Assembly: GCA_024413465.1 (NCBI GenBank)
Contig: JAKSVU010000003.1
Coordinates: 1 to 64,000 of the forward strand
Length of the DNA: 64,000 bases
Origin: Alphaproteobacteria bacterium
Lineage (GTDB): Bacteria > Pseudomonadota > Alphaproteobacteria > CAAGCB01 > CAG-977
Direction of reading: 5' to 3'
Shown: piece by piece, positions 12,764-59,671 of the stretch
Numbering within the stretch: the stretch's first letter is position 1
Layout: each line of letters begins with the position of its first letter
Position numbers and translations under genes: made by a program
Notes under the pieces: model-generated
What the model was told of the DNA's origin: nothing
Database searches by the model: none
The model's input: the letters and a program-made list of their open reading frames with translations, nothing else

Positions 12764-14881
12764 ATGGCAACACCTCCATCACTACCAAGTAACGTAAATC
12801 CTCAACAGCTTAAAGCATGGGGGATGACCTTAGCTAAGCGTAAAGATATTGCGTTAGCTGTTGGTATTGTTTTGATGATTGTGATTTTGATTTTGCCTTT
12901 GCCTACTTGGCTGTTGGATGTTGCATTGGCTGTTTCTATCACTTTTTCAGTTCTTGTTTTGATGACGACAATTTTTATTGAAAAACCAATTCAATTTACT
13001 TCTTTTCCATTGTTGTTATTGATTACAACTTTGTTCCGTTTGGCGTTAAACCTATCTTCTACAAGATTGATTTTGTCAGATGGTTATAAAGGTCCAACGG
13101 CGGCAGGTAATGTGATTGCTGCTTTCGGTGGATTTATCATGCGTGGTAATTTCATCATCGGGGTGATCGTATTCGCGATTTTGGTCTTGGTGAACTTCAT
13201 GGTTATTACCAAAGGTTCTGGTCGTATTGCTGAAGTGGCAGCCCGTTTTTCATTGGATGCTATGCCTGGTAAACAAATGGCAATTGATGCGGACTTGTCT
13301 GCAGGATTGATTGAACAAAATGAAGCAACACGCCGTCGTGAAGAATTAAACCAAGAATCAAGTTTCTATGGAGCTATGGATGGTGCTTCTAAGTTCGTTC
13401 GTGGGGATGCAATCGCAGGGTTGATTATTACGGCAATTAACATTATTGCAGGGATTTTAATTGGTATCTTGCAACGTAATATGGATTTTATGAAAGCAGC
13501 CAGTACCTATATGCAATTGACGGTAGGTGATGGGCTGGTTTCACAAGTTCCAGCTTTGATTATTTCCGTTGCTGCCGGTATCATGGTTTCTAAGGCGGGT
13601 ATTTCCGGTGGAACAGAAAAGGTATTGTTCGGTCAGTTATCGCATTATCCAAAATCTTTGGGAATGACGTCTTTTTTGTCTTTGATGTTGGCAACTTTAC
13701 CAGGAACACCGGCAGCTCCGTTTACTTTGTTATCTTTGGTAACAGGGGGAATTGCTTATTATCTTTGGCAATCTCAATTAAAAGCTGAAGAAGAAGCAAG
13801 ACAAGCTGCATTAAAAGCTCCTACAACACCTCCTCCACCAGTTGAAACACCGATTGAACAAATTTTAAAAATGGATTTAGTTCGATTGGAGTTAGGATAT
13901 AGCTTATTATCTTTGATTAATGATACGACTAATCGTCGTTTAACGGATCAGATTAAAGCCTTGCGTAGAAATATTGCTTTGGAATTAGGTTTTTTGATGC
14001 CGTCTGTTCGTATTCAAGATAATATGCGATTAGAACAAAATACTTACGTTATTTATATCAAAGATACGGAAGCAGGACGGGGAACTTTGCGTCCAAATAA
14101 ATTATTAGTCATGGATCCAAAAGGGCAAGAAATTACTCTACCAGGTGAAAAAACAGAAGAACCAACATTCGGTTTGCCTGCTATGTGGATTGATTTAAGT
14201 TCTCGTGAAGATGCTGTATTCCGTAACTATACCGTTGTGGATTGTCCAACGATTATTACAACGCATATTACAGAATTGATTAAAGCAAGTATGAGCGAGT
14301 TATTGAGTTTTACTGAAACACAAAAACTAATTGATTGCTTAGGTGATGATCAAAAAGCTTTGAAAAAAGATATGGCTGATAAAAAGGTAAGCGTCAGTAT
14401 TATTCAAAGTGTTTTACAAAGATTATTAACAGAACGGATTTCTATTCGTGATTTGCCTACGATTTTAGAAGCTATTTGTGAAGTTATCAATATGACACAA
14501 AGTATGACTGTTTTAACAGAGTATGTGCGTCAAAAATTAGCTCGTCAAATTTCAAATGCTAACGTTGGACCGGATGGTATTTTACAATTTATTGCTTTGT
14601 CTGGTGAATGGGAAAAAGCTTTTCAGTCAAATTTGTCTGGTTCTGGTGATGACAAGGTTTTGACGTTGCCACCTACGGATGTGACAAGATTTATTAGTGC
14701 TGTTAATAAAACTTTTGAAGAAGCTGCAATGAAGGGTGAAAGTCCAGTATTAATGGTTAGTTCGGCAATTCGTCCATACGTTCGGCAAATTGTAGAAAGA
14801 TTTAGACCGTCTTTGACGGTCATGTCACAGGGCGAAATTCATGCTCGTGTGAAAATTAGGTCGGTTGGAACTGTGATGTAG
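12764..14881 (+). CDS. flhA: flagellar export gate protein FlhA
   Basis: Integral membrane subunit of the flagellar type III export gate, with a cytoplasmic ring domain that receives substrate-chaperone complexes. The N-terminal half has about eight membrane helices and the FHIPEP family signature region (RFSLDAMPGKQMAIDADLSA, about 160-180). The C-terminal cytosolic domain (about 350-705) includes RISIRDLPTILEAI. Length 705 is standard. It starts 5 bp after flbD. Confidence 0.96.
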   Translation: MATPPSLPSNVNPQQLKAWGMTLAKRKDIALAVGIVLMIVILILPLPTWLLDVALAVSITFSVLVLMTTIFIEKPIQFTSFPLLLLITTLFRLALNLSSTRLILSDGYKGPTAAGNVIAAFGGFIMRGNFIIGVIVFAILVLVNFMVITKGSGRIAEVAARFSLDAMPGKQMAIDADLSAGLIEQNEATRRREELNQESSFYGAMDGASKFVRGDAIAGLIITAINIIAGILIGILQRNMDFMKAASTYMQLTVGDGLVSQVPALIISVAAGIMVSKAGISGGTEKVLFGQLSHYPKSLGMTSFLSLMLATLPGTPAAPFTLLSLVTGGIAYYLWQSQLKAEEEARQAALKAPTTPPPPVETPIEQILKMDLVRLELGYSLLSLINDTTNRRLTDQIKALRRNIALELGFLMPSVRIQDNMRLEQNTYVIYIKDTEAGRGTLRPNKLLVMDPKGQEITLPGEKTEEPTFGLPAMWIDLSSREDAVFRNYTVVDCPTIITTHITELIKASMSELLSFTETQKLIDCLGDDQKALKKDMADKKVSVSIIQSVLQRLLTERISIRDLPTILEAICEVINMTQSMTVLTEYVRQKLARQISNANVGPDGILQFIALSGEWEKAFQSNLSGSGDDKVLTLPPTDVTRFISAVNKTFEEAAMKGESPVLMVSSAIRPYVRQIVERFRPSLTVMSQGEIHARVKIRSVGTVM

Positions 14882-14892
14882 AGGAAACGTAG

Positions 14893-15843
14893 ATGAAAGT
14901 AAAAACATATCAAGCCTCCACGCAATCAGAAGCCATGGCCCAAGTCAGAAATGAGTTGGGTGAAAACGCGATATTAGTATCTGTTCAAAGATTAGCAGTT
15001 GGAATGGGTGTTCGCATTACTGCTGCAATTGAAGATGATGACGATTTAACCCCTGATTTAGTAGGTGATTATTATAATGAATCATATACGCCTATTCAAG
15101 AAAAGGTCGATAAGATTTTACGCCAACAGGGTGCAACAGAAAGTGTCATTGAAAAGGTTGTGAGTGAGTTAAATCGTAGTAACAGATCTGATGAATTGGT
15201 TGCTTTTGCGTCAGCAATGGATGCTGTTTTCAAATTTCATGCTTTGCCAGAAACAAGGGGACAGGCTTTTATGTTCGTTGGCCCTGCTGGAGCTGGGAAA
15301 ACAACGATTGTTGCTAAATTAGCGAATAGAGGATTGATGTCTGGTAAAAAAATAGGATTGATTTCCGCAGACGTTGTTCGTTTAGGAGCTGCCGAGCAAT
15401 TAGTTGCTTACACAAATACGCTTGATATTACTTTAACAAAGGCAAGATCTCCGGAAAATTTACATAATCACGTTGAAGCAATGAAGAAGACATGCGATTT
15501 AATTTTGATAGATATGCCAGCATGTAATCCCTTTTTACCGGAGGACATAGATTATTTATCAACGTATATTAAATCGGCAAATGTTACACCCGTTTTAATT
15601 TTACCGGCAGGAATTGATCCTGTTGAAACTGCTGAAACAGCTGAATGTTTTTCAGAAATAGGCGTTTCAGATTTAATTGCCACAAAACTTGACGCAGCTC
15701 GTCGTTTTGGGGGCATTTTGTCGGCAATGGATGCCGCTCGTTTAACAATTTCAGAAGCAAGTACAAGTTATAATATCAACAAAGGTTTATCCGTGGTAAA
15801 TGCGGTATCTTTGGCAAGATTGCTACTTTCTTCACAAGCATAA
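14893..15843 (+). CDS. flhF: flagellar SRP-family GTPase FlhF
   Basis: GTPase of the SRP54/FtsY family that helps set flagellar number and placement. The P-loop GPAGAGKTTIVAKLA is at about residues 130-144, followed by G2/G3 regions (SADVVRLGA and LILIDMPA) and the TKLDAA G4 motif near residue 258. At 316 residues it is shorter than many FlhF proteins because the N-terminal B domain is reduced. It lies between flhA and flhG, the usual polar-flagellum arrangement. Confidence 0.88.
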   Translation: MKVKTYQASTQSEAMAQVRNELGENAILVSVQRLAVGMGVRITAAIEDDDDLTPDLVGDYYNESYTPIQEKVDKILRQQGATESVIEKVVSELNRSNRSDELVAFASAMDAVFKFHALPETRGQAFMFVGPAGAGKTTIVAKLANRGLMSGKKIGLISADVVRLGAAEQLVAYTNTLDITLTKARSPENLHNHVEAMKKTCDLILIDMPACNPFLPEDIDYLSTYIKSANVTPVLILPAGIDPVETAETAECFSEIGVSDLIATKLDAARRFGGILSAMDAARLTISEASTSYNINKGLSVVNAVSLARLLLSSQA

Positions 15844-15852
15844 GGAGTTTTT

Positions 15853-16665
15853 ATGATGGATACGACAGAAAATAAATTATTTATGGCAGGTCATAAAATT
15901 CCGAAGCCCCCTGTTCGCAATATGATAGCCGTTGCTTCTGGAAAAGGCGGTGTGGGAAAAACGTGGTTTTCTATCACGTTGGCACATGCTTTTGCACAAG
16001 CTGGATTGAAAACGCTGTTATTTGATGCTGACTTGGGATTGGCAAATATCGATATTCAGCTAGGATTGATGCCTCAAAAAGACTTGGGAAGCGTTTTGAC
16101 GGGACGTGTAACCTTAAATCAGGCAGTTACTCATTATGAACCTGGTGATTTTGATATTATCGCAGGGCGTTCTGGATCAGGAAGTATTGCGAACATATTA
16201 CCTTCTAAATTGGAACCGATCGTTCAAGATTTAAGGACTTTGTCAACGGGATATGATCGTGTTATCGTTGATTTGGGGGCTGGTGTTGATAAATCAGTGC
16301 GTATGTTTGCGGCGATGGCTTCTACTTTGTTGATAGTCTGTACAGATGAACCAACTAGTTTGACAGATGCGTACGCTTTTATCAAGATGATGTGTTTGGA
16401 TCAAGCTTTATCCAATATTCGCATTGTTGTTAATTCAGCCAATACACCTCGTGAAGGGGATAGAACGTATTCAACGCTAAATCGTGCTTGTCAGGGATTT
16501 TTACATTTATCTCCTCCTTTGGCAGGAATTATTCGTCGCGATACGCGTGTGCGTGATGCAATTAGAAATCAAACCTCTATATTACTCCGTCATCCAAATA
16601 CGGAAGCAGCGGAAGACGTTATGAATATTGCTATTCGTTTGAATAAGGAATTTGAAATAGGTTAA
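15853..16665 (+). CDS. flhG: MinD-like ATPase FlhG (FleN/YlxH)
   Basis: ParA/MinD-family ATPase that limits flagellar number together with FlhF. The deviant Walker A motif GKGGVGKTWFS is at about residues 30-40, and the switch regions LLFDADLGLANIDIQLG (about 55-71) and VIVDLGAGVD (about 137-146) follow. No clear C-terminal MinD amphipathic helix is visible. Ten bp separate it from flhF. GGAG precedes a double ATG start, so the second Met is also possible. Confidence 0.88.
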   Translation: MMDTTENKLFMAGHKIPKPPVRNMIAVASGKGGVGKTWFSITLAHAFAQAGLKTLLFDADLGLANIDIQLGLMPQKDLGSVLTGRVTLNQAVTHYEPGDFDIIAGRSGSGSIANILPSKLEPIVQDLRTLSTGYDRVIVDLGAGVDKSVRMFAAMASTLLIVCTDEPTSLTDAYAFIKMMCLDQALSNIRIVVNSANTPREGDRTYSTLNRACQGFLHLSPPLAGIIRRDTRVRDAIRNQTSILLRHPNTEAAEDVMNIAIRLNKEFEIG

Positions 16666-16676
16666 GGATATTGAAG

Positions 16677-18440
16677 ATGAAGTTTTATTTAGCTTTACTA
16701 TTCAGTTTTATTTTTGTAAGTCCTGTTTTTGCTGGTGAGGAGAAATCTGATACGAAAACAGCACAGACGGAAAATGCAGAAATTGATCCTGTTTTGAAAG
16801 CTAAAAAGGAAAAAGAAGTTGATTCATATATGCCGTATTTAATTGCTGTTCAGGCAAAACAAACAAATGATTATGAAACGGCAGCTGAATACTTTAAAGA
16901 AGCTTATGAAAAAAATCCAGATAGTGAACTTTTGCGTTCTGAATTGATGTTATCTTCGACAATTTTGGGGAAAGTTGAAGATGCTATTCCTTTGGCAGAA
17001 GAAGTGATAAAAAAAGAAAATAATGATTTGTTGTCAACGATGATTGCTTTTACAGGTCGCTTGATGAAAGATGATTATAAAGGGGCTTTATCCGTTTTAC
17101 GTTCTTTTTCCAGAAAAGTTGATATTCAAGCGATTTATCCTATTTTTGAATTTTGGACTTATATCGGTATTGGTAATCGTGAAAAAGCGATTGAAACTTT
17201 GAAAAAAATGGATAATCCGGCAGTTAAATCATTTTATCTGTTTCATAGTGCCTTGTATTATGATTTCATTGATGATGAAGAACTTGCTTCGCATTATTTG
17301 AAAATGCTGACTTCAGAGCCAGGGAGCTTAACCTTGCGTGGTGCACAAGTTATTGGGAACTATGCATTGCGTCATAAAAAATTGCAAGATTATGCACATA
17401 TTGTTCAAGCATATCGAAATACAGATAAAATATATTCTTTGAAAGATGATTCGTTCTTTACAAAAGGGGAACAGAGCAATTTAGATGTTCCTCCAACAAT
17501 TACTTCCGCTAAAATGGGAATTGCGGAGGCTTTTTTTGATTTAGCAACGTCCTTAAAAGATACTTCAGAAGAAACGGCAATTTATTTTTTACAACTTACT
17601 TTGAAACTGGATCCAGATTTAGGTTTAGCTCGTTTCTTGTTGGGAGAATTAATCGAAAAACAAGCAAGGTATGATGAAGCAATTGAATATTTTTCAAAAG
17701 AAAGCGAAAAATCTGATATTTACTATATTTCCCAATTGCGAATTGGTTTGATTTACTATGATAAATTAAAACAATATGATAAGGCTGAAAAAGTATTTAA
17801 AAATTTAGCTAGTTTAAGAGATGATACAGCTTTACCATGGCGTTATTTGGCAGATATGTATCAAGCAAATAAACAGTATGATAAAGCAATAGAAGTTTTG
17901 ACTGAGGCATTAAAAGTGATTCATTATACGGATGGATCTCGTTGGTATTATTTCTATTTCCGTGGGGTAGCTTATGAGCGAAGTGGAAATTGGCCTGCTG
18001 CTGAAGCTGATTTAAAAAAATCCTTGGAATTATATCATAATCAACCAGAGGTTTTAAATTATTTGGCATATTCATGGTTAGAACGTGGTGAACATTTAGA
18101 AGAAGCTATGAAAATGTTGACTAAAGCCGTAGAGTTGGCTCCTGCTGATGGGGCAATTTCTGATAGTTTTGGATGGGCATATTATATGCAGAAAAATTAT
18201 GCTAAAGCTGTTGAATACCTTGAATTAGCTTTGAAATTGACTCCAGGAAGTGCTGTAATTTCAGACCATTTGGGTGATGCTTATTGGCGTATTGGCAGAA
18301 AATTTGAAGCAAAATATCAATGGCGTAAATCTTTGGATATTGAACCAGATATGACGGAAGATTTAAAAGCTCGTATTGAAGAAAAACTTGAAAAAGGTCT
18401 TGATGCTGTTGGTGATAAATTTGAAGGATTTAAAAAGTGA
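16677..18440 (+). CDS. exported tetratricopeptide-repeat protein
   Basis: A signal peptide (KFYLALLFSFIFVSPVFAG) is followed by a charged linker and about ten TPR-like helix pairs, clearest at the C-terminal half (YDKAIEVLTEALKV, AEADLKKSLELY, YAKAVEYLELALKLTP). It resembles the TPR proteins found beside ispE in alphaproteobacteria, thought to act in the envelope; no specific role is assigned. The start at 16677 is chosen because AAGGA sits 8 bases upstream; an upstream TTG at 16671 is less likely. The stop overlaps the ispE GTG start. Confidence 0.8.
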   Translation: MKFYLALLFSFIFVSPVFAGEEKSDTKTAQTENAEIDPVLKAKKEKEVDSYMPYLIAVQAKQTNDYETAAEYFKEAYEKNPDSELLRSELMLSSTILGKVEDAIPLAEEVIKKENNDLLSTMIAFTGRLMKDDYKGALSVLRSFSRKVDIQAIYPIFEFWTYIGIGNREKAIETLKKMDNPAVKSFYLFHSALYYDFIDDEELASHYLKMLTSEPGSLTLRGAQVIGNYALRHKKLQDYAHIVQAYRNTDKIYSLKDDSFFTKGEQSNLDVPPTITSAKMGIAEAFFDLATSLKDTSEETAIYFLQLTLKLDPDLGLARFLLGELIEKQARYDEAIEYFSKESEKSDIYYISQLRIGLIYYDKLKQYDKAEKVFKNLASLRDDTALPWRYLADMYQANKQYDKAIEVLTEALKVIHYTDGSRWYYFYFRGVAYERSGNWPAAEADLKKSLELYHNQPEVLNYLAYSWLERGEHLEEAMKMLTKAVELAPADGAISDSFGWAYYMQKNYAKAVEYLELALKLTPGSAVISDHLGDAYWRIGRKFEAKYQWRKSLDIEPDMTEDLKARIEEKLEKGLDAVGDKFEGFKK

Positions 18441-31727: not shown

Positions 31728-33338
31728 ATGGCTGATGGTGTAACAAGATGGGAATCTGCAGGTGGAAACAATACGAAGAGTATTGGTGGAAACGGGTATG
31801 AATTTTCCTATACTGACAAAGAAGGCAAAACTCAATATTTGCAAGTTGATTATGGTTCAATGTTTGCTGATACTGAAAAAACAGGATTAGAGGCTTACAT
31901 CCCAGAAATTCCAAAGTCAAACGATATTTTGATTACTCATGGACACATGGATCACGTGGGAGGAATCGCACATTTAATCAATTTGCGTCGTGGTAAAACA
32001 AAAGAACCATTGACCTTGCACTGCACAAAATATTCCGAAATGATGATTCGTAATAATTTGGCTTCATCTCGTATTCCAGTTGAGGAATTTCCTCAATTTC
32101 ACACAATCGAACCTGGAAAACCATTTGAAGTAAATGGGTTTAAAGTAGAGCCTTTTGCTGTTTCTCACTCTATTCCAGAAGCTTCAGGTTTCGTTGTTGA
32201 ATCTCCAGATGGTATTCGTTGCATGACAATGGGCGATTTCAAAACAGCTCCTGTTCCACTTGGAAATGGTTGGGATGATAAAGCTGTTGCTGAAATTGCT
32301 AAAAAGGGAATCGATTTTATGTTTGTCGATTCAACTTCTGCATCTTCTCCAGGTTATTCAAAGAGTGAAAACATAGTTCAAGGTGGCTTAAAAGAAGTTT
32401 TAAAACAAAGCGAAGGTGGGATGATTGTTTCTGCAATGATTTCTAGCTCTGCTCATCGTTTGCATACGATTGCAACTTCAGTTGCTAAGTATGCAAAAGA
32501 AACAGGAACAAATCCAAGAACAGTTATCATTGATGGTACGGCATTAATCAATGCTCGTCGCGCTTTGAATAAATGTGGCTACGCTTTAGAAGATATGGTC
32601 AAAGAACAAACAGGTGTGGATGTTAAGATTGTTGCTGCAGGAACAAAAGCTGCTCAACAAGTTCCTCCAGATGAAAGATTTTACGTTTGCACTGGAACAC
32701 AAGGTGAAGAAGCTTCTTTTGTAAAAGTAGCTGAAGGTCGTAATAAAAACATTTCTTTAGATGTTGGTTGTCCAGTTCATGTGTTCAATTTACAATCCTG
32801 TATTCCAGGAAATGAGGAACAATATAAAGAATTAGAAGAAAAATTCAAAGCTAAAGGCTGTACGACTTTCTTCCCAGATAGATATAAACCAAATGCAATT
32901 ACAGTTCATGCAAGTGGTCACTCTGGTGCTGGCGACGTTGCTCATGCTTGTAAGATTGTTCATGATAATTCACCACGCCCAACGAAAGTTATTCCAATTC
33001 ATGGTGCTACAGAACAACGCAATAAGGTAATGGAAATTGCTCATGATGCAGGAATGAATACGTTCTTAGTTCGTAACTTCTCTTCTGTTGCAATTGATTC
33101 TGAAGGTCGTGCTACTTTCGAAAAACCAGCGAAAGAAGAAACTTGGATTACGGTTACGGATTTGAATCATGATTTCCGCAAACCAAAATACGAATATGCT
33201 CGTATTGGTATGAATATTGATGAACGTAAAGTTCGTCAAATCGGACCTATTTATTATAAAAAACCTCCTTTCAAAAAGAACAATATGCTCGATGCAGCAG
33301 CTGCAAAGAAAATTTTGGAAGCACAAGGTAGAGTTTAA
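31728..33338 (+). CDS. metallo-beta-lactamase-fold hydrolase, RNase J-like
   Basis: 536 residues. The MBL zinc motif THGHMDHVGG is at about residues 71-80, the second metal region VEPFAVSHSIPEASGF at about 145, and the late His motifs VHASGHSGAGD and VIPIHGATEQR near 390-425. The beta-CASP-type arrangement resembles ribonuclease J, an RNA 5'-3' exo/endonuclease. The C-terminal third is atypical and lacks an obvious RNase J tail domain, so a different RNA or phosphodiester substrate is possible. A terminator follows the gene. Confidence 0.78.
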   Translation: MADGVTRWESAGGNNTKSIGGNGYEFSYTDKEGKTQYLQVDYGSMFADTEKTGLEAYIPEIPKSNDILITHGHMDHVGGIAHLINLRRGKTKEPLTLHCTKYSEMMIRNNLASSRIPVEEFPQFHTIEPGKPFEVNGFKVEPFAVSHSIPEASGFVVESPDGIRCMTMGDFKTAPVPLGNGWDDKAVAEIAKKGIDFMFVDSTSASSPGYSKSENIVQGGLKEVLKQSEGGMIVSAMISSSAHRLHTIATSVAKYAKETGTNPRTVIIDGTALINARRALNKCGYALEDMVKEQTGVDVKIVAAGTKAAQQVPPDERFYVCTGTQGEEASFVKVAEGRNKNISLDVGCPVHVFNLQSCIPGNEEQYKELEEKFKAKGCTTFFPDRYKPNAITVHASGHSGAGDVAHACKIVHDNSPRPTKVIPIHGATEQRNKVMEIAHDAGMNTFLVRNFSSVAIDSEGRATFEKPAKEETWITVTDLNHDFRKPKYEYARIGMNIDERKVRQIGPIYYKKPPFKKNNMLDAAAAKKILEAQGRV

Positions 33339-49980: not shown

Positions 49981-51753
49981 TTAAATATCTGTACTTTCTT
50001 TTTCTTCATTGTCACCAGGAGAAGAAAATGTAATTCCTAAAAGGCTACCAGAAACATTTGCATCAGTTAAACTTCTAACAACATAATTTGTGTATTTAAA
50101 ATCTTCAGAAAAATCCATTACTGGGAGTTGATCAGAATTTAAAGTAAAAATATATTGGAAATTACAATCTATTGCTTTTTTTGCTGCCAATTCAATGGCT
50201 TTTGCTCTTTGTCTAGAATCTACAGCATCATACAAAGTACTATCATGAATCAAAAAATCTATTCCCTGAGGTAAATTTTTACGAAACATTTCAATTAACA
50301 TAAGATCATAACAGAATATATCCATTCGCTCTATGCCTTCACTTGTTTTTTCCCGAGATATGTTAAACTTGTAATTTCCATATCTATCTGTATCTACAAT
50401 AAGATTTGCATACATATCATACAGAAACATAGAATTTTTATTAAATATCGAAATTTCTTCTTTCAGATATTCATTAATGTTTATATCTTGGTTTATTTCA
50501 TGTTTTATTAGATCTTTTTGACTTTTAATTTTATATATTTGATCTTCAGCATCCTGTTGTTTTTTTATATCCGATTTAACCTCCTCTAATTGGGCTAATT
50601 TTTTAGATAAATTATCTTGAAGTAGAGAATATTCGTCTAAAGCTCCATGAGCTGATAATATCTTCATTTTTTCAGCTCTTTCATTTACATATTTTTCTAT
50701 TTGTGCATCGATTTCTTTTATATCGATTTCAATTTGTTTGACTTCATTTTGTAAGAATTCTTTTCTGTTTTGGATAATAATCTTATTAAAATTCTGAACT
50801 TCTTTTAGAGTTCTTGTTACATTTTCAGAAAAAGAAATTTGAACTTCTTTGTACATTTTAGAAATAGCATTTATATCATTATTGTTATTTTCCTCAATAA
50901 TAATTGATTGATATTCTGATAATTTCTTTTTGATAAAAATTTTTTGATTATTTAATGATTGCAAATTTTTTGTAAGAATATTAGCTGCATCCTGTATTTC
51001 TCTATATTCTGGCAACACATTGAATTCTTGTATATTTTTTCTTAATTTATTTATTTCATCAGATAATATTACCATTTGAGAATTCAGTTTACCAATAGTT
51101 TGTCCTTGAGACTTGAAAAAAGATATTAAATTCTTATGCTTATCTGTTTCCTCTTGAAAATTATGCAATTCAAGACTTTTTCCCCAAAGCAAATTAAGAA
51201 CAAAAGCATTGTTTGTCTGCTTTTGAACTGCTTTTTGATTTTTAAAAGTTGTAAAAGGATCGGTATAAGCTCCAGATTTTCTTAAAAAATACCCTAACAC
51301 TGTTCTTCCTGTTGGAGAAAATGCTTTTTTTGTTTCAATGTTCTTGATATTAAACAAATTTTCCCCTAAAAATTCTTTCCATTCACCAATATCTATATAT
51401 GCGGATTGATCTTTTTGCTGTTTTAAATCAAAAGGAATATTTTTACAAAAAGAATGGATAAAAATTCGTTTTGGATTATCTATATAACGAGTAACCTCAA
51501 AGTGATAACTATTTAACTCTAATTCTAAAGAAAAAGCCCAATCTTTCAATTCTAAAGCATTTAATTTACTATTTTTCGAAAAATCTGATCCTAAACAAAA
51601 ATCTAAAATTTCAATAAATGTTGTTTTACCTAATGCATTTCTTGAAGCTTTCTCGCCTGATTTGCTAGTTTTTTCTGCTAAAACAATATTCAGCCCTCTA
51701 TTGAATACAATAGGTTTAAATGTAGAATGATTGGCTGATAATTTATATAACAT
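49981..51753 (-). CDS. ABC-3C system ATPase (DUF2326 protein)
   Basis: 590 residues of the RecN/SMC-like ABC ATPase type. The N-terminal P-loop is ASRNALGKTTFIEIL (about 36-50), a long coiled coil spans about 200-430, and the C-terminal DUF2326 domain has DIFCYDLMLIEMFRK and GIDFLIHDSTLYDAVDSRQ, which supplies Walker B-like features. In ABC-three-component systems this ATPase works with a small middle component and an effector protein in genome conflict. It overlaps the middle-component gene by 11 bp. Confidence 0.85.
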   Translation of the reverse strand: MLYKLSANHSTFKPIVFNRGLNIVLAEKTSKSGEKASRNALGKTTFIEILDFCLGSDFSKNSKLNALELKDWAFSLELELNSYHFEVTRYIDNPKRIFIHSFCKNIPFDLKQQKDQSAYIDIGEWKEFLGENLFNIKNIETKKAFSPTGRTVLGYFLRKSGAYTDPFTTFKNQKAVQKQTNNAFVLNLLWGKSLELHNFQEETDKHKNLISFFKSQGQTIGKLNSQMVILSDEINKLRKNIQEFNVLPEYREIQDAANILTKNLQSLNNQKIFIKKKLSEYQSIIIEENNNNDINAISKMYKEVQISFSENVTRTLKEVQNFNKIIIQNRKEFLQNEVKQIEIDIKEIDAQIEKYVNERAEKMKILSAHGALDEYSLLQDNLSKKLAQLEEVKSDIKKQQDAEDQIYKIKSQKDLIKHEINQDININEYLKEEISIFNKNSMFLYDMYANLIVDTDRYGNYKFNISREKTSEGIERMDIFCYDLMLIEMFRKNLPQGIDFLIHDSTLYDAVDSRQRAKAIELAAKKAIDCNFQYIFTLNSDQLPVMDFSEDFKYTNYVVRSLTDANVSGSLLGITFSSPGDNEEKESTDI

Positions 51754-51979
51754 CCCTATTCCTCTTATATATTCGGTTATTCTTAAATTCTATAGCTCCA
51801 ATAGAATAAAGAAAATCCAATGTTAATGTAAAATATTGAAATGAATTTAGTTTTATGCGAGCTTTAGATAATTCCCACAATCTGGATACAGTTAATGGAT
51901 TATCTAAAATTCTCAGTATTTGTGAACCAATCCCTAATAAAGACTTATCCATAGATATAATTTTATTCGGTAAAATCAT
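51743..51979 (-). CDS. ABC-3C middle component (MC6-like)
   Basis: 78 residues, a winged-helix-like adaptor: LLGIGSQILRILDNPLTVSRLW, then KLNSFQYFTLTLDFLYSIGAIE and a basic end. Size, sequence style and position between the HNH-containing protein and the DUF2326 ATPase match the middle component type 6 of ABC-three-component systems. ATGA overlap with the upstream gene indicates tight coupling. Confidence 0.8.
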   Translation of the reverse strand: MILPNKIISMDKSLLGIGSQILRILDNPLTVSRLWELSKARIKLNSFQYFTLTLDFLYSIGAIEFKNNRIYKRNRDVI

Positions 51980-52746
51980 TTTTCAAATATCTCACAAATA
52001 TGGAAAAAATAAGTTAAAACTGCAATGCCGGCAGCTTGTAATGTAAAATCGTGTTCTATTCCAGCATGCATTCTATCTAATATTGCTAGAAACAAATCAT
52101 CTCCTTTATATTTTTGAGCTTCCTCTTTATAGATTGATTTTATACAATTTAGTAAATCTTCTGCAAAGGTAGCATTTGTTTGATTGCTTAAATAAGCAGC
52201 TACAAATTTCGTCTTTAACATTCCTTGCTGTATAAGGTTATAGATTTTATGAGATAATTCATTTTTAGTAATTTTTTCTTCAATTTTAATTGTAGAATAA
52301 TCAGGATTTTCCGAGTAATCCGAAGCACAGTTTGCTATTGCTTTACATATCACTTCCAATTCTGCATAAGTTATATTTAATATTTCTTCACTTAGTTGTT
52401 TATTTATCCAATCAGTATGCTCTCGCTTCATTTGTATTAATTTTTTAGCAGAAAAATTTTCTGGAGCTGCATCTATTTCACTATGACATGAAGGACATAA
52501 TAAAATTAAGTTTGATTCGTCATTTTTTAGTTCTGTGGGAAAATTATCTTGTTGTATTTCAGAGTATCTTGGAGAATTTGACTCTCCAAACGGATAAATA
52601 TGAGCAATTTGACCTATTTGCGTTGATTTATTTTCTCCAATAATTATAGGTCTGTGACATTTAGAACATCTACCCGCAGCATTAGCATACAGTATTTTTA
52701 TGGTTTTAACACTGTAAGAACGCTGTTTTGAAGAAGAATCTACCAT
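51976..52746 (-). CDS. ABC-3C effector-type protein with N-terminal HNH domain
   Basis: 256 residues. The N-terminal region (about 15-115) is an HNH/zinc-ribbon nuclease fold: CSKCHRPII, IGQIAHIYPFG, and CPSCHSEID give two C-x2-C pairs and the catalytic His. The C-terminal half (about 130-250) is helical and matches the ABC-3C-associated C-terminal region that contacts the ATPase. First gene of the three-gene unit; likely the nuclease that attacks invading or host DNA when triggered (inference from the family). Confidence 0.8.
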   Translation of the reverse strand: MVDSSSKQRSYSVKTIKILYANAAGRCSKCHRPIIIGENKSTQIGQIAHIYPFGESNSPRYSEIQQDNFPTELKNDESNLILLCPSCHSEIDAAPENFSAKKLIQMKREHTDWINKQLSEEILNITYAELEVICKAIANCASDYSENPDYSTIKIEEKITKNELSHKIYNLIQQGMLKTKFVAAYLSNQTNATFAEDLLNCIKSIYKEEAQKYKGDDLFLAILDRMHAGIEHDFTLQAAGIAVLTYFFHICEIFEK

Positions 52747-52816: not shown

Positions 52817-53665
52817 TCATCTAGGCTTTTTCTTCTCAATATCTTTCTTTTTGTCCTTCTTCGGCAGGTAGTTTTCATCGGTAACGACGGATTTGCCGGT
52901 TTCTTCTTCATATTTTTCTTTAGCAACACAGGCGACATTACCACCACGACGAGCGGCCTTTTTATTTTCCGCCATTCCGGTTGCTCCCATATTTTCTGCC
53001 ACCTGACGCGTTGAAAGTTCTGCTAAAGCAGTAAAGATAAGTTCTGCCTCGTTCATATGGTCACGCAAATTTTGCGATTTTAGACCTTTAAGCTGTTTAT
53101 GTTCTTTAACAGACAGTCCAGACCATTCCTGATGAATGATATTGGTTAAAATCGCATATTCCTCATCTTTGGTGATTTCGTGATCTTTCCAATAATCCGT
53201 CAACTTATTACGAGTTTCTTGTCCCATCATACGTTGCTGAATCCATTTTTCGGAATGTCCGAGCTTTTGCCAATTCTCGCGAGCACGATCAATACTCAAA
53301 GCAGGATCAACCGTTTCTTTCATCCGCTCATAACCAACTCGTGCCAACCACTGCTTAATCGGCTCAGCTTTAGGACTTGGTACTGACTGCACAATTCGGA
53401 GCATTGTTTCAGCATCGGCAGCATCAGTATCGCGCATCTTCCCATCTGTTGCCAACATTTTCAACCGTACGATTTTTTCGTACGGTTGAGAAGAACCAGC
53501 TTCTTTATTCAGTTTTCGCTTTAAATCTGACCAGTAACGCTTTGGTTCTTTACTTTCACTGAGAATAGCGATGACATCAATTACCGAAAAGTACCAAATA
53601 TCCTTTTCTTCATCATAAACTGAGCGAATTTTGCTTTGTTCAAACAGTTTAATATCATTTTTCAT
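52817..53665 (-). CDS. Bro-N domain protein (phage antirepressor/DinD-like)
   Basis: 282 residues. The N-terminal Bro-N domain (about 8-110) shows SKIRSVYDEEKDIWYFSVID and VIAILSESKEPKRYWSDLK. The C-terminal half resembles DinD-type proteins, with GGNVACVAKEKYEEETGKSVV near residue 245 and a lysine-rich tail. Such proteins are phage antirepressors or DNA-damage-induced. The GC content and codon use are higher and different from the ABC-3C genes next to it, so the two were probably acquired separately. Confidence 0.78.
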   Translation of the reverse strand: MKNDIKLFEQSKIRSVYDEEKDIWYFSVIDVIAILSESKEPKRYWSDLKRKLNKEAGSSQPYEKIVRLKMLATDGKMRDTDAADAETMLRIVQSVPSPKAEPIKQWLARVGYERMKETVDPALSIDRARENWQKLGHSEKWIQQRMMGQETRNKLTDYWKDHEITKDEEYAILTNIIHQEWSGLSVKEHKQLKGLKSQNLRDHMNEAELIFTALAELSTRQVAENMGATGMAENKKAARRGGNVACVAKEKYEEETGKSVVTDENYLPKKDKKKDIEKKKPR

Positions 53666-53790: not shown

Positions 53791-54288
53791 TTATTTCTTT
53801 CGGACTAATTTGCAGTAAACTTGTGACAACAATTCAGCATCAAGCAACGCTCCATGAACATCTCTTTTGTTGGTATTAATGCCAAACCTTTCACATAACG
53901 CATCCAAATTACACCGCATGTTAGGAAATGCAGCTTTTGCCAGTTTCAGGGTATCCGTCATTTTATTTGTCAGTTCAAAACCTAACTCGTGATTTAAGAA
54001 ACTTAAATCAAAGGATATGTTATGTGCAATTAATTCTTTGCCTTCAATAAACTTTAGAAAATCATCCTTTATTTCATCAAAAGTCGGAAAATCTTTTAAG
54101 TAATCCGTCGTTAAACCATGTATTTGCACAACCTCATCAGGTACAATTTGTTCCGGATTGATATAAGTATGAAAGACGGCTCCGGTCGGTTGATTATTTT
54201 CATCAATTTCAATAGCGCCTATTTCAACCAATTTACAATTTTTAGGATCAAATCCCGTGGTTTCGGTATCAAAAATGACTTTATGCAT
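53791..54288 (-). CDS. DnaQ-like 3'-5' exonuclease, catalytically complete
   Basis: 165 residues, DEDDh family (Pol III epsilon-like). Exo I is FDTETTGFDP (first D and E), Exo II AHNISFDLSFL (D), Exo III VHGALLDAELL (H and D). Short, stand-alone exonuclease domain. AGGAGG precedes the ATG. The 16-bp motif GCGACC-N7-GTC lies 43 bp upstream. Two related genes lie at 57938 and 58432, with degraded active sites. Confidence 0.88.
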   Translation of the reverse strand: MHKVIFDTETTGFDPKNCKLVEIGAIEIDENNQPTGAVFHTYINPEQIVPDEVVQIHGLTTDYLKDFPTFDEIKDDFLKFIEGKELIAHNISFDLSFLNHELGFELTNKMTDTLKLAKAAFPNMRCNLDALCERFGINTNKRDVHGALLDAELLSQVYCKLVRKK

Positions 54289-54368: not shown

Positions 54369-54689
54369 TTATTTCAAAGCATCCACAACTTTAATAAGTG
54401 TTGAAATTTGGTCATCTGATAATTTTTTAATACTGGAAATTAGTGCAGCTTCTTCAAAAATGCGTTTACGGCTGATGTTTTTATCCAAACTGTCATCTAA
54501 TATATCGCAAAGAGAACAACCTAAAACTTTTGCAATTTGTATCAAAGTTTCAAAATGCGGATAATTTACGCCTCTTTCAATATTCGAGACTGCTTCAACA
54601 GAAATATTACAACGCTCTGCTAAAACTTCCTGCGTTATCTTTGCTTCTTGACGTATAGCCTTTATTTTTAACCCGATTTTATGCTTCAT
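54369..54689 (-). CDS. XRE-family transcriptional regulator (106 aa)
   Basis: An N-terminal Cro/CI helix-turn-helix (KIKAIRQEAKITQEVLAERC, then ISVEAVSNIERGVNYPHFETL) is followed by a helical tail that probably dimerises. The ATG at 54689 is chosen over 54701 because GGAG sits before it. It is the only DNA-binding gene between two copies of the GCGACC motif, so it is the leading candidate to bind it (inference). Confidence 0.85.
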   Translation of the reverse strand: MKHKIGLKIKAIRQEAKITQEVLAERCNISVEAVSNIERGVNYPHFETLIQIAKVLGCSLCDILDDSLDKNISRKRIFEEAALISSIKKLSDDQISTLIKVVDALK

Positions 54690-54789
54690 ATTTCGCTCCA
54701 TTTATAGAAGTTAAACTTAAAGTTTTAGCTTGAAAACGAAGCAAAACTTTTATAATACTATTATAAATACAAGTTTTACTTAATAAGAT

Positions 54790-54805
54790 GCGACCGAAAA
54801 TGTCG
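54790..54805 (+). promoter_or_regulatory. shared operator-like motif, copy 2 (before nuclease-like gene)
   Basis: GCGACCGAAAATGTCG, 51 bp before the ATG at 54857 and in the divergent region with the XRE gene. Compare copy 1 (GCGACCGAATCTGTCG) and copy 3 (GCGACCAAAACAGTCA). Confidence 0.6.
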
Positions 54806-54856
54806 TATTCTCATATTAAGTAATAAGCAACTGTAACGTTTTTTAGGAGAAAATTT

Positions 54857-55759
54857 ATGAATACGAGAGCTCTGAAATCTGATTTTTTCAAAGAATTTGA
54901 AAAGGGTGGAAAATACGAAAAAATCGTAGAATTAGTCAAAGCAGACAACAGTTTAATTATGTGTATGCGCGGAAGTTATGTAACAATTTATTATAAGAGC
55001 TTACAAATTCTAAAAATTAATGAAAAAGGAACATTTGAAGTAGATGCAAATTATAAAATTAATCCGAAAGATTATGGTGATAGCTGGGCAGTTTATTTTA
55101 AGGATGCTAAAGAAGCTTTAGATAATCATAATGATGTTGAAAAACTGGAAAAAGAAGTTCAACAAGCATTGGTCAAAGAAAATAACTGTGGTTCAATATG
55201 CAAAGAAACCGACTATTTTATTTTGGACATTGAATATACGCAAAGTGATTTTGATGGACGTTTTGATGCGTTGGCAGTTTATTGGCCAAAAGATAAACGC
55301 AAAAACGGCAATAATTTAAGATTAGCTTTTGTAGAAGTTAAAGCAGGAGAAAAAGCTATTTCCGGAACATCAGGCGTATCTCGACACTACAAATCCGTTA
55401 TAAAATTTATGGGCGAACTTAATAATAATAAAGATGAATTTCTTGAAGACTTAGAAAAAGTGATTGAGCAACAGCGCAAGCTCGGTTTATGGGAATATGA
55501 TAATTCGCGCAAGATAACATTTTCGCGGACGGAAAAACCGCAATTAATCTTTGTTTTGGTTAATTATAACCCAAATTCAAGCTATCTTGATAACGAAATT
55601 AAGGAAATAGGCAATTATGTTGAAAAATATGAAAATGAAATTCCGATTGAAACGCTTTTCGCCAGATCTTCATTCATGGGCTACGGTTTATATGACAGTT
55701 GCATGCTATCTTTAGAATATGTCCAAAAAAGAGTTTGCAGAGGCAATCATGAAGGCTAG
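54857..55759 (+). CDS. putative PD-(D/E)xK nuclease-like protein
   Basis: 300 residues, no signal. The centre has FDGRFDALAVYWPKD, then RLAFVEVKAGEKAISG (about 133-175): an Asp followed by E-x-K on the next strand, the core of PD-(D/E)xK nucleases, with a conserved-looking SRHYKS after it. The N-terminal 100 residues are unassigned. Function as a DNA or RNA nuclease is inference. AGGAG precedes the start. The next gene (MBL fold) begins inside its 3' end, so the two are translationally coupled. Part of the candidate defence operon 54857-57943. Confidence 0.55.
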   Translation: MNTRALKSDFFKEFEKGGKYEKIVELVKADNSLIMCMRGSYVTIYYKSLQILKINEKGTFEVDANYKINPKDYGDSWAVYFKDAKEALDNHNDVEKLEKEVQQALVKENNCGSICKETDYFILDIEYTQSDFDGRFDALAVYWPKDKRKNGNNLRLAFVEVKAGEKAISGTSGVSRHYKSVIKFMGELNNNKDEFLEDLEKVIEQQRKLGLWEYDNSRKITFSRTEKPQLIFVLVNYNPNSSYLDNEIKEIGNYVEKYENEIPIETLFARSSFMGYGLYDSCMLSLEYVQKRVCRGNHEG

Positions 55760-56945
55760 TATCAAAAGAGGGGCAAATCAAATCGGCGGATCGGCAGTGG
55801 AATTAACCGCCAACTCCGGTGAGCGTTTGATTATTGATTTAGGACTACCTCTGGATGCCGAAGAAAACACCGCAGATTTATTACCCGATATTAAGGGACT
55901 AAAAAATAAAACCGATGATTTGCTGGGGATTCTTATTTCTCACCCTCATCAAGACCACTATGGCTTGGGTTTGCACATTGATAACAGCATCCCGATTTAT
56001 ATGAGCAAAGCAACGGCCGATATTATGGATGTATGCGTTAAGCACAATCTTCCCAACGCCTTTGCTTTCGGTAATATACATATTTTTGATGATAAATCTT
56101 CTTTTTCTATCGGTCCGTTTACCGTAACGCCATATCTGGTTGACCATTCCGCATACGGAGCATACGCCTTTTTGATAGAGGCCGACGGTAAACGCTTGTT
56201 TTACAGCGGGGACTTTCGTGCCCATGGGCGCAAGGGCAAATTATTTGACGGTTTTATCAAAAATCCTTCCAAAGATATTGATGTTTTGATGATGGAGGGC
56301 TCTTGCCTTGGTCGTGAACAGTCAACAAAATATCCGTCTGAAACATCTCTTGAAACAGAATTTGAAAAGATCTTTAAGGAAACCAAAGGTGTAGCCTTTA
56401 TTCAAAGTTCTTCACAAAATATTGACCGTATTGTGACCATCTACAGGGCAGCAAAGAAAAGTGGTAGAACTTTAGTTATAAGCGGTTACACCGGACACGT
56501 CTTAATGGTGCTAAATAACGAGCATTTACCCAGTTTTAAATGGCCGAACGTGAAAAAGTTTGCAACAGATAGTACGACACCGCATAACATAACCAAAGAG
56601 ATGATAGCGCAAAATCCATCCAAATATGTGATTATGTTCGGCGGTCTGATTTTCAATATCTTAAAAAGCAGTTCGCTTGTTAACGAAAATGCTTCCTTTA
56701 TCTATTCTATGTGGGACGGCTACAAAGAGCTGTATCAAGAACGCTTAGATTTAATGAAAGAAAAAAATGTACCGATGTATGATATTCATACTTCTGGTCA
56801 TGCGGATATTCCGACATTGCAAAAATTTGCTTTGGCCATAAATCCTAAAAAAATTGTACCGATACATACTTTCTTTCCCGAGCAATTTAAGGAACTGTTC
56901 AACAACGTAGAATTGCATAATGATAACGAAACTTTTGAAATTTAG
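55749..56945 (+). CDS. MBL-fold hydrolase, RNase J/beta-CASP-like
   Basis: 398 residues from the chosen start. ISHPHQDHYGLGLHI (zinc motif H-x-H-x-D-H) is near residue 63. YSGDFRAHGRKG (the D/H metal region) lies near 155, and late TSGHADIPTLQ and KKIVPIHTFFPEQF motifs near 350-375 belong to the beta-CASP arm. Likely a nuclease acting on RNA or DNA ends. The ATG at 55749 has AGAGG upstream and overlaps the previous gene by 11 bp; a start at 55719 is also open. It is distinct from the native RNase J-like protein at 31728. Codon and base use differ from the native genes. Confidence 0.75.
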   Translation: MKASIKRGANQIGGSAVELTANSGERLIIDLGLPLDAEENTADLLPDIKGLKNKTDDLLGILISHPHQDHYGLGLHIDNSIPIYMSKATADIMDVCVKHNLPNAFAFGNIHIFDDKSSFSIGPFTVTPYLVDHSAYGAYAFLIEADGKRLFYSGDFRAHGRKGKLFDGFIKNPSKDIDVLMMEGSCLGREQSTKYPSETSLETEFEKIFKETKGVAFIQSSSQNIDRIVTIYRAAKKSGRTLVISGYTGHVLMVLNNEHLPSFKWPNVKKFATDSTTPHNITKEMIAQNPSKYVIMFGGLIFNILKSSSLVNENASFIYSMWDGYKELYQERLDLMKEKNVPMYDIHTSGHADIPTLQKFALAINPKKIVPIHTFFPEQFKELFNNVELHNDNETFEI

Positions 56946-56953
56946 GATGTAAT

Positions 56954-57943
56954 ATGCCAGTAAATCATTCCGCCAGACTTGAAAAAGTAGAAAATATAAT
57001 CAGGCTTATCAATCGTATGGCAGGTTCTACCGAAGGTGTAAGCATTAATGATATAATGGTGGAATATAAAGTCTGTCGCCGTACTGCCGAAAGAATGATG
57101 AATATTATCAGGGCGCTTTATTCAGCACAACTGGAAGAAGTCGATAACGGAGAAAACTATAAATCATATCGTTTGCAAGAGCTTTATCGCCAGGGACCGA
57201 TAAAATTAGCGCCTGAAGAAATTTCCTGTCTATCTCAAGCAATAAAATTAGCTCATCGGGGAAAAAGAGAGGAATTAGCTGATGAATTACAGCACCTCGA
57301 ATACCGCATAAAATCATTTTGCAAGGAAAAAGACAAGTATAACGTCGAAAATATAGCGGAAATGGAAGATATCAGCATGTCTGCCGGTCCAAAATATATA
57401 ATCAATCAAGAAATTTTAGCAGACCTTCGCAATGCCATCACAAATTGGAATGAAGTAATTATAACCTATAAACTGCGCGCAAATGGCGAAACTAAGCACT
57501 TTCGGATACAACCTTATGGTATTTTATATGGCTCCAGACCTTATTTAGTAGCTTATTATGAGACAGATAAAGATTACCGTTATTTTTGTCTTTCTAATAT
57601 TATTGCCATAGAGCTAACCGATATCAAATTCAGCCGCAATGAAAAATTTTCTCTGCAAAAATATGCAGAGCAGTCTTTCGGCAGTTTTCAGGAAAAACCT
57701 TACAATGTTATTTGGAAAGTCAACAAAAACCGAGCAGACGATGCGGAACATTATTTATTTCATCCGACTCAAACTATAGAAAAGCAAAAAGACGGCAGTT
57801 TAATTGTACGTTTCACCGCCGGTGGCTTAAAAGAAATGTGCTGGCATCTCTTTACTTGGGAGGGAGATATCGAGATACTGGAGCCGCAAGTATTAAAGGA
57901 AACGATGTGCGATTTGCTAAACAAAGCAAAAAATATGCTATAA
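56954..57943 (+). CDS. WYL-domain transcriptional regulator
   Basis: 329 residues. An N-terminal helix-turn-helix (LINRMAGSTEGVSINDIMVEY, CRRTAERMMNII) is followed by a WYL domain (FRIQPYGILYGSRPYLVAYY, then RYFCLSNI, about 180-215) and a C-terminal WCX-like extension (AGGLKEMCWHLFTWEGDIEIL). WYL regulators often control defence cassettes by sensing nucleic-acid fragments or nucleotides. It starts 8 bp after the MBL gene in the same operon. Confidence 0.85.
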   Translation: MPVNHSARLEKVENIIRLINRMAGSTEGVSINDIMVEYKVCRRTAERMMNIIRALYSAQLEEVDNGENYKSYRLQELYRQGPIKLAPEEISCLSQAIKLAHRGKREELADELQHLEYRIKSFCKEKDKYNVENIAEMEDISMSAGPKYIINQEILADLRNAITNWNEVIITYKLRANGETKHFRIQPYGILYGSRPYLVAYYETDKDYRYFCLSNIIAIELTDIKFSRNEKFSLQKYAEQSFGSFQEKPYNVIWKVNKNRADDAEHYLFHPTQTIEKQKDGSLIVRFTAGGLKEMCWHLFTWEGDIEILEPQVLKETMCDLLNKAKNML

Positions 57944-58429
57944 TGAATTTAGTTTAGCGTAAAGTTGCACACACATGTCACACTCTTCTTCCTTAAAATT
58001 GAAAAAATCAGAATCTTTTAATTTAAACACATGCATCAGATGAGTAACATCATCCTCTCTTAAATTTGTTTTTTTATTTACCCAACTCTTCAAATCAATA
58101 AAATGATTAGACAGCGGTTGTCGCAACTCTCGTTCCAATACTGCTTGGGTAGATAGCGCATCATAGCAAACAATTTCTTTATTGCCGATAAAAGCTAAAA
58201 AATCTTCCTTTATTTCGGATATCGTTCTCGAGTCATTGATTTCATCTGCCGTGAGTCCATAAAATAATTCTATAAAATCAGGCAATTCCGCTTGCGGATT
58301 AATAGGCGTATAAAATAGTTTGCCGGTTATGTGCCCTAATTCATTAAATTCCGCCGCATGGAGAGATAAAATCTTACCTTGAGTAATATTTTTACCGGTT
58401 GTTTTAATAACTAATGCAATTTTACTCAT
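57938..58429 (-). CDS. DnaQ-like protein, catalytically degenerate
   Basis: 163 residues aligned end to end with the exonuclease at 53791: Exo I reads VIKTTG instead of D-x-E-TTG, so both acidic residues are lost. The Exo II and III positions (CYDALSTQAVL, EEECDMCVQLYAKL) lack the usual pattern. The fold seems kept (PINPQAELPDFIELFYGLTADEI mirrors the INPEQIVP-IHGLT segment). Probably an inactive paralogue with a binding or regulatory role. It overlaps the WYL gene end by 6 bp (convergent) and follows the 58432 gene by 2 bp. Confidence 0.7.
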   Translation of the reverse strand: MSKIALVIKTTGKNITQGKILSLHAAEFNELGHITGKLFYTPINPQAELPDFIELFYGLTADEINDSRTISEIKEDFLAFIGNKEIVCYDALSTQAVLERELRQPLSNHFIDLKSWVNKKTNLREDDVTHLMHVFKLKDSDFFNFKEEECDMCVQLYAKLNSL

Positions 58430-58431
58430 GG

Positions 58432-58935
58432 TTATTTCTCCTTTGTTGTTAATTCTTTATACATTTTTGCCATCATGTGACATCTTGAAAGAGGTCTTAG
58501 GTGCCACATTGTATCAATACCTTTGATATCAAACCTATTTAACAAATCAAAAAATGAAGGAGCTTTAACGTTTGGATTTTTATTTGCCAGCTCAGAAATA
58601 ATTGTTGTTTCATTAGGTAGAGCAAATCCTAACGCCATATATATAAAATTAAGGTTTTGTGCTTCATCAAACACAACGAGTTCTTTATTCGCCAAAAAGC
58701 AAAGAAAGTTATTTTCTAATTCGGAGAAAGTCGGCTTATCTTTAACAGTGGCCTGCGTAATACCGGTAATTGTTGAAATTTGTCGCGGTATACGACATTG
58801 AGGGTTAATCAACGAGCAAAACACATTTCCGGTAAGACGGCAATATTCATCTATTTCAATGGCCGAAAGCGATATTATTTTATCTTTTTCAAATTTTCCC
58901 CCTGTTGTTTCAATATCTATAACAATCTTTCGCAT
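58432..58935 (-). CDS. DnaQ-like protein, partly degenerate
   Basis: 167 residues. Exo I is intact (VIDIETTGGKFEKDK), but Exo II reads VFDEAQNLNFIYMAL without the usual H-N-x-x-F-D, and Exo III (MWHLRPLSRCHMMAKMY) keeps a His but has lost the Asp. It is intermediate between the active copy at 53791 and the inactive copy at 57938, with which it forms an operon. AAGGAG precedes the start, and the GCGACC motif is 47 bp upstream. Confidence 0.72.
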   Translation of the reverse strand: MRKIVIDIETTGGKFEKDKIISLSAIEIDEYCRLTGNVFCSLINPQCRIPRQISTITGITQATVKDKPTFSELENNFLCFLANKELVVFDEAQNLNFIYMALGFALPNETTIISELANKNPNVKAPSFFDLLNRFDIKGIDTMWHLRPLSRCHMMAKMYKELTTKEK

Positions 58936-59635: not shown

Positions 59636-59671
59636 TAATCATTTAATATCTTAAAAAATGGAGGTTTGCTA

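Follow-up and report, generated by a model that had tools for sequence, protein, structure and literature searches.

Three consecutive genes, hereafter referred to as A, B, and C, form an operon in a 64,000-nt stretch of contig JAKSVU010000003.1 from an alphaproteobacterium (this whole stretch is the window). A (54857–55759, plus strand) encodes a predicted PD-(D/E)XK nuclease, B (55749–56945, plus strand) an RNase-J-like hydrolase with the beta-CASP metallo-beta-lactamase (MBL) fold, and C (56954–57943, plus strand) a WYL-domain protein. Together, A and B probably constitute a mobile two-enzyme module directed at invading genetic elements. This immune role is favoured over repair, addiction, and chance because the pairing of the two genes is near-obligate, they are lost jointly and fused at some loci, the partner is exchanged, the active sites remain intact, the spread is patchy, and defence genes are found in their company. 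The conserved unit is the A+B pair: the RNase-J-like gene is constant, the nuclease is exchangeable, and the WYL gene is an add-on. Re-translation placed the start of B at the ATG at 55749 and reproduced the coupling of the three genes described in a first-pass annotation of the window, with an 11-bp overlap between A and B and an 8-bp gap between B and C. A plausible ribosome-binding site precedes each of the three genes.

Association of B with nuclease genes

Members of the B family are present on plasmids, and it was the annotation of such plasmid matches that first made an uncharacterised gene beside B apparent. The pair is spread across many bacterial phyla, and cultured carriers include Bradyrhizobium diazoefficiens SZCCT0423, Azospirillum rugosum, and Crenobacter intestini. 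In a scan of species genomes with B, the best 80 of 222 relatives (79 loci) were taken. With the plasmid loci and our own loci, 96 stretches were available, 92 of which contain B (L002, L003, L004, and L016 do not). De-replication at 80% identity, with the addition of eight loci that ORF calling had missed and that were not de-replicated, left 68 non-redundant B loci. A gene for a PD-(D/E)XK-type protein lies no more than 2.2 kb from B in 63 of these: downstream of B in 40 loci, upstream in 17, on the other strand in 4, and fused to B in 2. By profile, 33 of the 63 partners belong to A's own family, and the remaining 30 fall into 15 other families, seven of them singletons (about 16 sequence families in total). 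Of 70 same-strand genes adjoining B, 44 carry the ExK-type motif, as against 31 of 235 open reading frames (ORFs) at least four genes distant (Fisher p = 1.5e-15).

The pairing was also seen in 385 alphaproteobacterial genomes that were drawn independently (thresholds: E 1e-45 for B and E 1e-10 for the A family); B occurs in 8 of them and A's family in 5. Inspection covered each of the eight B loci and the one A locus that lacks an intact B. Each of the seven intact Bs adjoins a PD-(D/E)XK-type gene. The partner belongs to A's family in G000, G006, G105, and G208, and to the c20 family in G316. It is of the c21/L014 type and about 540 bp from B in G227, and in G325 it carries IDISIHDDKRGRLLGIEVK (recognised by the motif only, with no Pfam match). 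The eighth B (G299) is a decayed pseudogene that has lost two active-site histidines, and it has no partner. Four of the five A-family genes stand beside an intact B, and the fifth, itself intact, is followed by a B remnant (G381). The island around the operon is a mosaic of unrelated genes, and A and B might thus be neighbours by chance. For these two genes, this explanation is refuted by the 63-of-68 pairing, the independent genomes, and the fusions and partner exchanges described below; its probability is practically nil.

Among the neighbour clusters, no methyltransferase cluster recurs beside B, so that the pair does not belong to a restriction-modification system, and no protease cluster recurs there either. 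No relative of A or of the B alignment was found in the viral contigs; thus, assembled phages do not commonly carry the module. The phage collection gave 14 phage-record matches of B, which are just 21–32% identical.

Two side observations concern the surroundings of B. In L024, the region 14312–17075 (minus strand) holds a second B copy; two DnaQ-type genes share the strand of this copy, a DnaX-like gene adjoins it, and no PD-(D/E)XK partner was seen there. A family of small proteins (median 147 amino acids (aa); L007:7558–7953 and seven other loci) has no Pfam match; in six of these eight loci, its gene directly precedes B.

Fusion and exchange of the partner

In L032 and L064, B and a nuclease of the L042 family, which is not A's family, are joined in single ORFs of 755 and 759 aa, and in L030 such a fusion is followed by a frameshift. 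L042, a relative of the fused loci, carries B and the nuclease as separate overlapping genes. Another fusion beside B (L087:9298–10866) joins a DnaQ-type exonuclease to a PD-(D/E)XK-type nuclease; in L025 and L039, relatives of this nuclease domain are encoded next to B as unfused proteins.

A maximum-likelihood tree was built from the 68 Bs and four outgroup rows; L012 and L014 lie on long branches, and their placement is unsure. The partner families need 28 changes on this tree (minimum possible, 9; shuffled mean, 36.3). A's family alone needs 20 changes, at least 15 of which are forced by well-supported branches. Close sister Bs with different partners are seen, for example, in L036/L039, L071/L073, L090/L091, and L041-L060/L043. 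Thus, B stays and the nuclease is exchanged.

Two features that the partners might have in common were considered and not supported. One is a single nuclease family behind all of them: profile comparison joined just c4–c21 (96%), c20–L042 (70%), and c21–L014 (51%) among 120 pairs, and the other partner families remain apart at the sequence level. The other is an N-terminal adaptor common to different nucleases: a weak match was obtained between the A family and c30 (30% probability), and the N-terminal pieces alone gave values under 2% (c30 and L079 yielded no piece).

The gene arrangement also bears on a toxin–antitoxin (addiction) function, in which A would be a toxic nuclease restrained by B (or C), for instance through degradation of its mRNA or product. 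Overlapping genes, a mobile setting, and the exchange of a putative toxin family beside a constant partner agree with this explanation. However, B and its partner nuclease are fused in one chain at some loci, and the gene order is free, with the partner downstream in 40 and upstream in 17 of the 63 loci. Moreover, the A-family gene of G381 appears intact and persists next to a B that is broken, which would not be expected of a toxin without its antidote. We consider an addiction function distinctly unlikely.

Protein identities and putative mode of action

In A (300 aa), an N-terminal domain (about residues 1–92) and a nuclease domain (about 94–290) with E98, D137, and E160-x-K162 were delimited from the re-translation, the family alignment, the structural model, and its neighbours. 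No significant Pfam family match was obtained, and no model of PADLOC-DB 2023 fits A, the sole match being an incidental one to a methyltransferase model at 0.01. In the A-family alignment (33 rows from the window and the genome loci; the other rows are 11–89% identical to A), R38, Y45, E98, E126, D137, E160, and K162 are invariant. The predicted structure is confident (predicted local distance difference test (pLDDT) 87.7; predicted template modelling score 0.87) and shows an alpha-beta core preceded by a small N-terminal domain. Its best structural neighbours are mostly PD-(D/E)XK enzymes with a top Z of only 7.7, and a family's absence from this neighbour list does not argue against it. Those with the highest Z include NucS/EndoMS (7.7), BstEII (6.6), Can2 (6.2), HamA (6.0), Card1 (6.0), SduA (5.8), and FokI (5.8), with NucC further down. 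A plain Foldseek search with the model gave nothing below E 0.001. As Z is middling (below 8) and Foldseek is not significant, the fold evidence by itself is moderate, and the PD-(D/E)XK assignment rests jointly on the motif and the consistent neighbours. The glutamate of helix A, the aspartate, and the E-x-K motif all lie on a restriction-endonuclease-like core in the model, and A is in this sense confirmed as a PD-(D/E)XK protein.

B (398 aa) matches Pfam Lactamase_B_2 (2e-12) and RMMBL (1e-4), and it has no PADLOC-DB 2023 match at E 0.1. A profile of seven Bs matched the solved structures of EF2904 (2az4; 5e-28) and RNase J (4e-22). In agreement, the B half of the L064 fusion protein was modelled well, and its closest solved fold is 2az4 EF2904, followed by RNase J. 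The catalytic residues are HxHxDH (65–70), H133, D155, E183, H351, and H373, and the family signature is QNIDR (223–227). HxHxDH, H133, D155, E183, and the signature residues N224, D226, and R227 are kept in all 68 B loci, and H347, S349, H351, and H373 in all 67 aligned Bs. B therefore shows every feature of the beta-CASP group: HxHxDH, the third His, the motif-4 Asp, the acidic motif A, the motif-B His, motif C, and the fold. It falls outside RNase J proper, with 76 bits against a family-model cut-off of 400 and 398 aa against about 550 aa. According to PMC3095777, a His in motif C of beta-CASP enzymes goes with RNA substrates and a Val with DNA substrates; since motif C is His in all 67 aligned Bs, B appears to be of the RNA type. 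The genome's own RNase-J-type proteins are distinct from B (22–29% identical). Apart from these relations, the same genome encodes two more MBL-fold proteins that are distantly B-like (31728–33338 of the window and G000:C120:2327–2914) and an RNase-J-like protein on C1.

C (329 aa) matches Pfam WYL (1e-9; residues 153–220) and WCX (1e-10; 263–324) above the cut-offs and a PADLOC WYL model (4e-24). No Pfam HTH match was found in it. C is probably a regulator of the operon. The characters that the first-pass annotation had given to the three proteins, a PD-(D/E)XK-like protein with a fold to be verified by structure prediction, a beta-CASP MBL hydrolase, and a WYL-domain regulator, are thus all borne out.

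The recurrent co-occurrence of the three families proved to hold for A and B and only partly for C. A WYL gene is present near B in 18 of the 68 loci and in none of 40 control loci around ABC-transporter genes, which were taken from 25 of the same genomes. The WYL models were mostly built from loci of this set, including ten of the 68; without those ten, the numbers are 8 of 58 against 0 of 40 (p = 0.012). The place of the WYL gene varies by locus (downstream, upstream, or divergent). In the independent sample, it lies within the fetched stretch in 4 of the 8 B loci (the window, G105, G208, and G227; G006 was judged from its ORF list only). Because the pairing is strong for A and B (63 of 68; 7 of 7 intact Bs) and partial for WYL, the unit is A+B, with C optional, and the association of C with the pair is moderate. 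In L020 (9209–9907) and its relatives L021–L023, the WYL position is taken by an unrelated gene, whose 232-aa product has no Pfam or PADLOC match and, judged by eye, begins with a hydrophobic stretch.

A further regulator gene of the XRE/HTH_3 type (54369–54701, minus strand; Pfam HTH_3, 7e-17) diverges from the operon, and its position is kept in close gut-alphaproteobacterial relatives (cluster c3; 10 loci before de-replication). Two inverted repeats, recognised by eye at 54719–54750 and 54779–54820, occur in the promoter region (54719–54820) and are candidate operators for the XRE or the WYL protein. They are largely kept in L017, L019, and L028, partly in L024, and not in L018; the L020 row was offset in this comparison and is hence uninformative.

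If the module is immune in function, A, its exchangeable part, would cut or choose the target beside B, the constant beta-CASP hydrolase of the RNA-processing type. The two enzymes would share a target and probably form one complex: A would nick or cut the invader DNA, and B would degrade the RNA made from or paired with this DNA, or trim the ends made by A. C, and perhaps also the divergent XRE protein, would hold the operon low until an infection signal. Such repression is modelled on CapW, a WYL protein that, according to PMC9122588, controls CBASS and whose repression is released by an infection signal.

Several points weigh against this interpretation. The module has no constant sensor, ATPase, or self-marking enzyme that would account for the sparing of the host. 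Close relatives are over-represented among the loci because the best matches of the scan were taken. Recognition of the 30 partners that do not belong to A's family relied in part on a motif and on visual inspection; seven of them are single sequences identified in these ways, some are backed by weak Pfam nuclease matches only, and the L047 partner has E-x-E. No partner was seen in 5 of the 68 B loci (L012, L015, L033, L034, and L083). Of these, L033 ends shortly past B, L034 is the sister of a locus with a partner (L050), and L083 contains part of an A-type gene. In L056, L089, and L092, the partner is more than 650 bp from B. The nuclease part of the L064 model is mostly below pLDDT 50, leaving the fold of this second nuclease family unconfirmed, and the motif-C His predicts, but does not prove, an RNA substrate for B.

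Genetic setting and relation to known defence systems

The window carries a phage-type integrase at 46807 and a terminase at 61826, and a serine recombinase and a tyrosine integrase are encoded on the same contig past the window end; the operon accordingly lies in a mobile region, as had been proposed. Defence-related genes accompany it. An ABC-three-component-type system (49981–52746, minus strand; PADLOC candidate PDC-M68A/B) comprises a DUF2326 ATPase, a small middle protein, and an HNH protein with CTD10, and a BRO-N protein (52817–53665, minus strand) matches the PADLOC candidate PDC-S13 at 7e-119. A ParB-methylase at 59666 lies outside the A-B-C operon. Between 5 and 16 kb past the window end, the same contig carries an AbiEi/AbiEii pair (L096:5523–7213) and a type I restriction-modification system with a fused modification-specificity gene (L096:10777–15706).

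The suspected defence-island company was also seen around the other B loci. At E 1e-20, 61 PADLOC families were found when 120 of the 277 ORFs flanking B were compared, and 27 when 120 of the 307 control ORFs were; the top 25 families were listed per sample and the numbers count families, not proteins, so that this comparison is qualitative. Those listed for the B flanks include pAgo, Cas1, Cas12f, Csx1, several PDC families, and type II methyltransferases. Those listed for the controls are mostly models of one E1-E2 protein, with IetA, mad3, SoFic, DrmD, and PDC-S04; mad3 is among the listed families of both samples.

This setting can be compared with what would be expected if the pair served mobile-element housekeeping or DNA/RNA repair, processing ends, R-loops, or transcripts during the transfer or replication of the element or the host. 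Loci on plasmids and next to recombinases suit such a function, as do the DnaQ, calcineurin-like phosphoesterase, and BRCT neighbours at some loci. However, the occurrence is patchy (8 of 385 alphaproteobacterial genomes), the neighbours are defence genes and not a fixed transfer or repair set, and WYL regulators would not be specially expected. In addition, the repeated exchange of the nuclease is more in keeping with an arms race than with a fixed repair step. We consider housekeeping or repair unlikely.

The immune module might also be larger than the pair and include DnaQ-type exonucleases as obligate parts, joined in some genomes by an AAA+ ATPase or a phosphoesterase. Three genes of possible accessory function, all on the minus strand, flank the window operon: a DnaQ-type 3′-5′ exonuclease gene (53791–54288; Pfam and family-model matches), a diverged DnaQ-type gene (57938–58429; RNase_T 3.6e-5), and another DnaQ-type gene (58432–58935; RNase_T 8e-16). 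In addition, the partner nuclease of L087 carries a fused DnaQ, and DnaQ is encoded beside or near B in L064, L036, L024, and L012. Nevertheless, DnaQ-type genes occur near B in just 6 of the 68 loci against 0 of 40 controls, and DnaQ was thus rejected as an obligate part of the module in general. This enrichment is itself only a hint because five of the six loci were used to build the model. A larger unit is accordingly very improbable. A tandem AAA+ ATPase is encoded near B in several lineages (L018:3992–6076, L025, L026, L058, and L089); its best PADLOC family, IetA, is also present in the control sample, and it was therefore not counted as a part. Separately, a calcineurin-like phosphoesterase gene overlaps the end of B in L009 (9212–9856) and L012 (9443–10012).

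The open-licence literature yielded no description of the A+B pair; subscription papers and newer defence-gene models lay outside this scope, and a description elsewhere is possible. Every fold in the module is already known. If the pair protects against phages or plasmids, it would be an apparently undescribed, widespread immune module with a testable design rule, namely that the RNase-J-like partner is kept and the nuclease swapped. A beta-CASP RNase would then gain an innate-immune job outside CRISPR. The system has no evident self-marking step, so that the sparing of the host would become an answerable question. More tentatively, and with somewhat less than even confidence, we suggest that the module represents a new class of two-enzyme immunity, in which a constant RNase-J-like beta-CASP chassis carries interchangeable PD-(D/E)XK heads of many families, sometimes fused and often under WYL control, and would destroy RNA and DNA without a methylase, guide RNA, or NTPase.

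Shedu is a single-gene system. Its protein SduA is, like A, a PD-(D/E)XK nuclease with an N-terminal domain encoded in defence islands, and it is a structural neighbour of A, although a Z of 5.8 is not decisive. In contrast to SduA, A is tied to B and has no match to the PADLOC SduA models; SduA_C is a weak Pfam match in 2 of the 33 A-family members (best, 1.6e-3). The nuclease–protease pairs of Hachiman, Avs, Lamassu, and DRT (HamM), as presented in PMC12799240, resemble A+B in that the gene for an MBL-fold nuclease adjoins a second enzyme gene and spreads with it as a pair. There, however, a ComEC-like MBL nuclease is combined with a trypsin-like protease, whereas here a beta-CASP RNase-J-like enzyme is combined with a PD-(D/E)XK nuclease; B, being of the beta-CASP type and lacking a PADLOC match, does not belong to the HamM-type pairs.

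As for regulation, C is comparable with CapW (PMC9122588) and BrxR (PMC9122589), WYL proteins whose genes lie in or next to defence operons; C is likewise encoded with a candidate defence operon. The regulated genes differ from those of CapW and BrxR, and the WYL gene is here optional and variable in place. The type VII CRISPR effector Cas14 is also a beta-CASP nuclease in immunity, but its match with B is weak (E 0.006; 14.9 bits against a cut-off of 800), and other Cas proteins and repeat arrays around the window operon were not searched for. With RNase J and the bacterial beta-CASP ribonucleases, among which EF2904 (2az4) is the closest solved fold, B shares the fold, all MBL and beta-CASP catalytic motifs, and the motif-C His. 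Unlike RNase J, B is shorter, carries the QNIDR signature, is mobile and patchy in occurrence, and is almost always encoded beside a nuclease gene.

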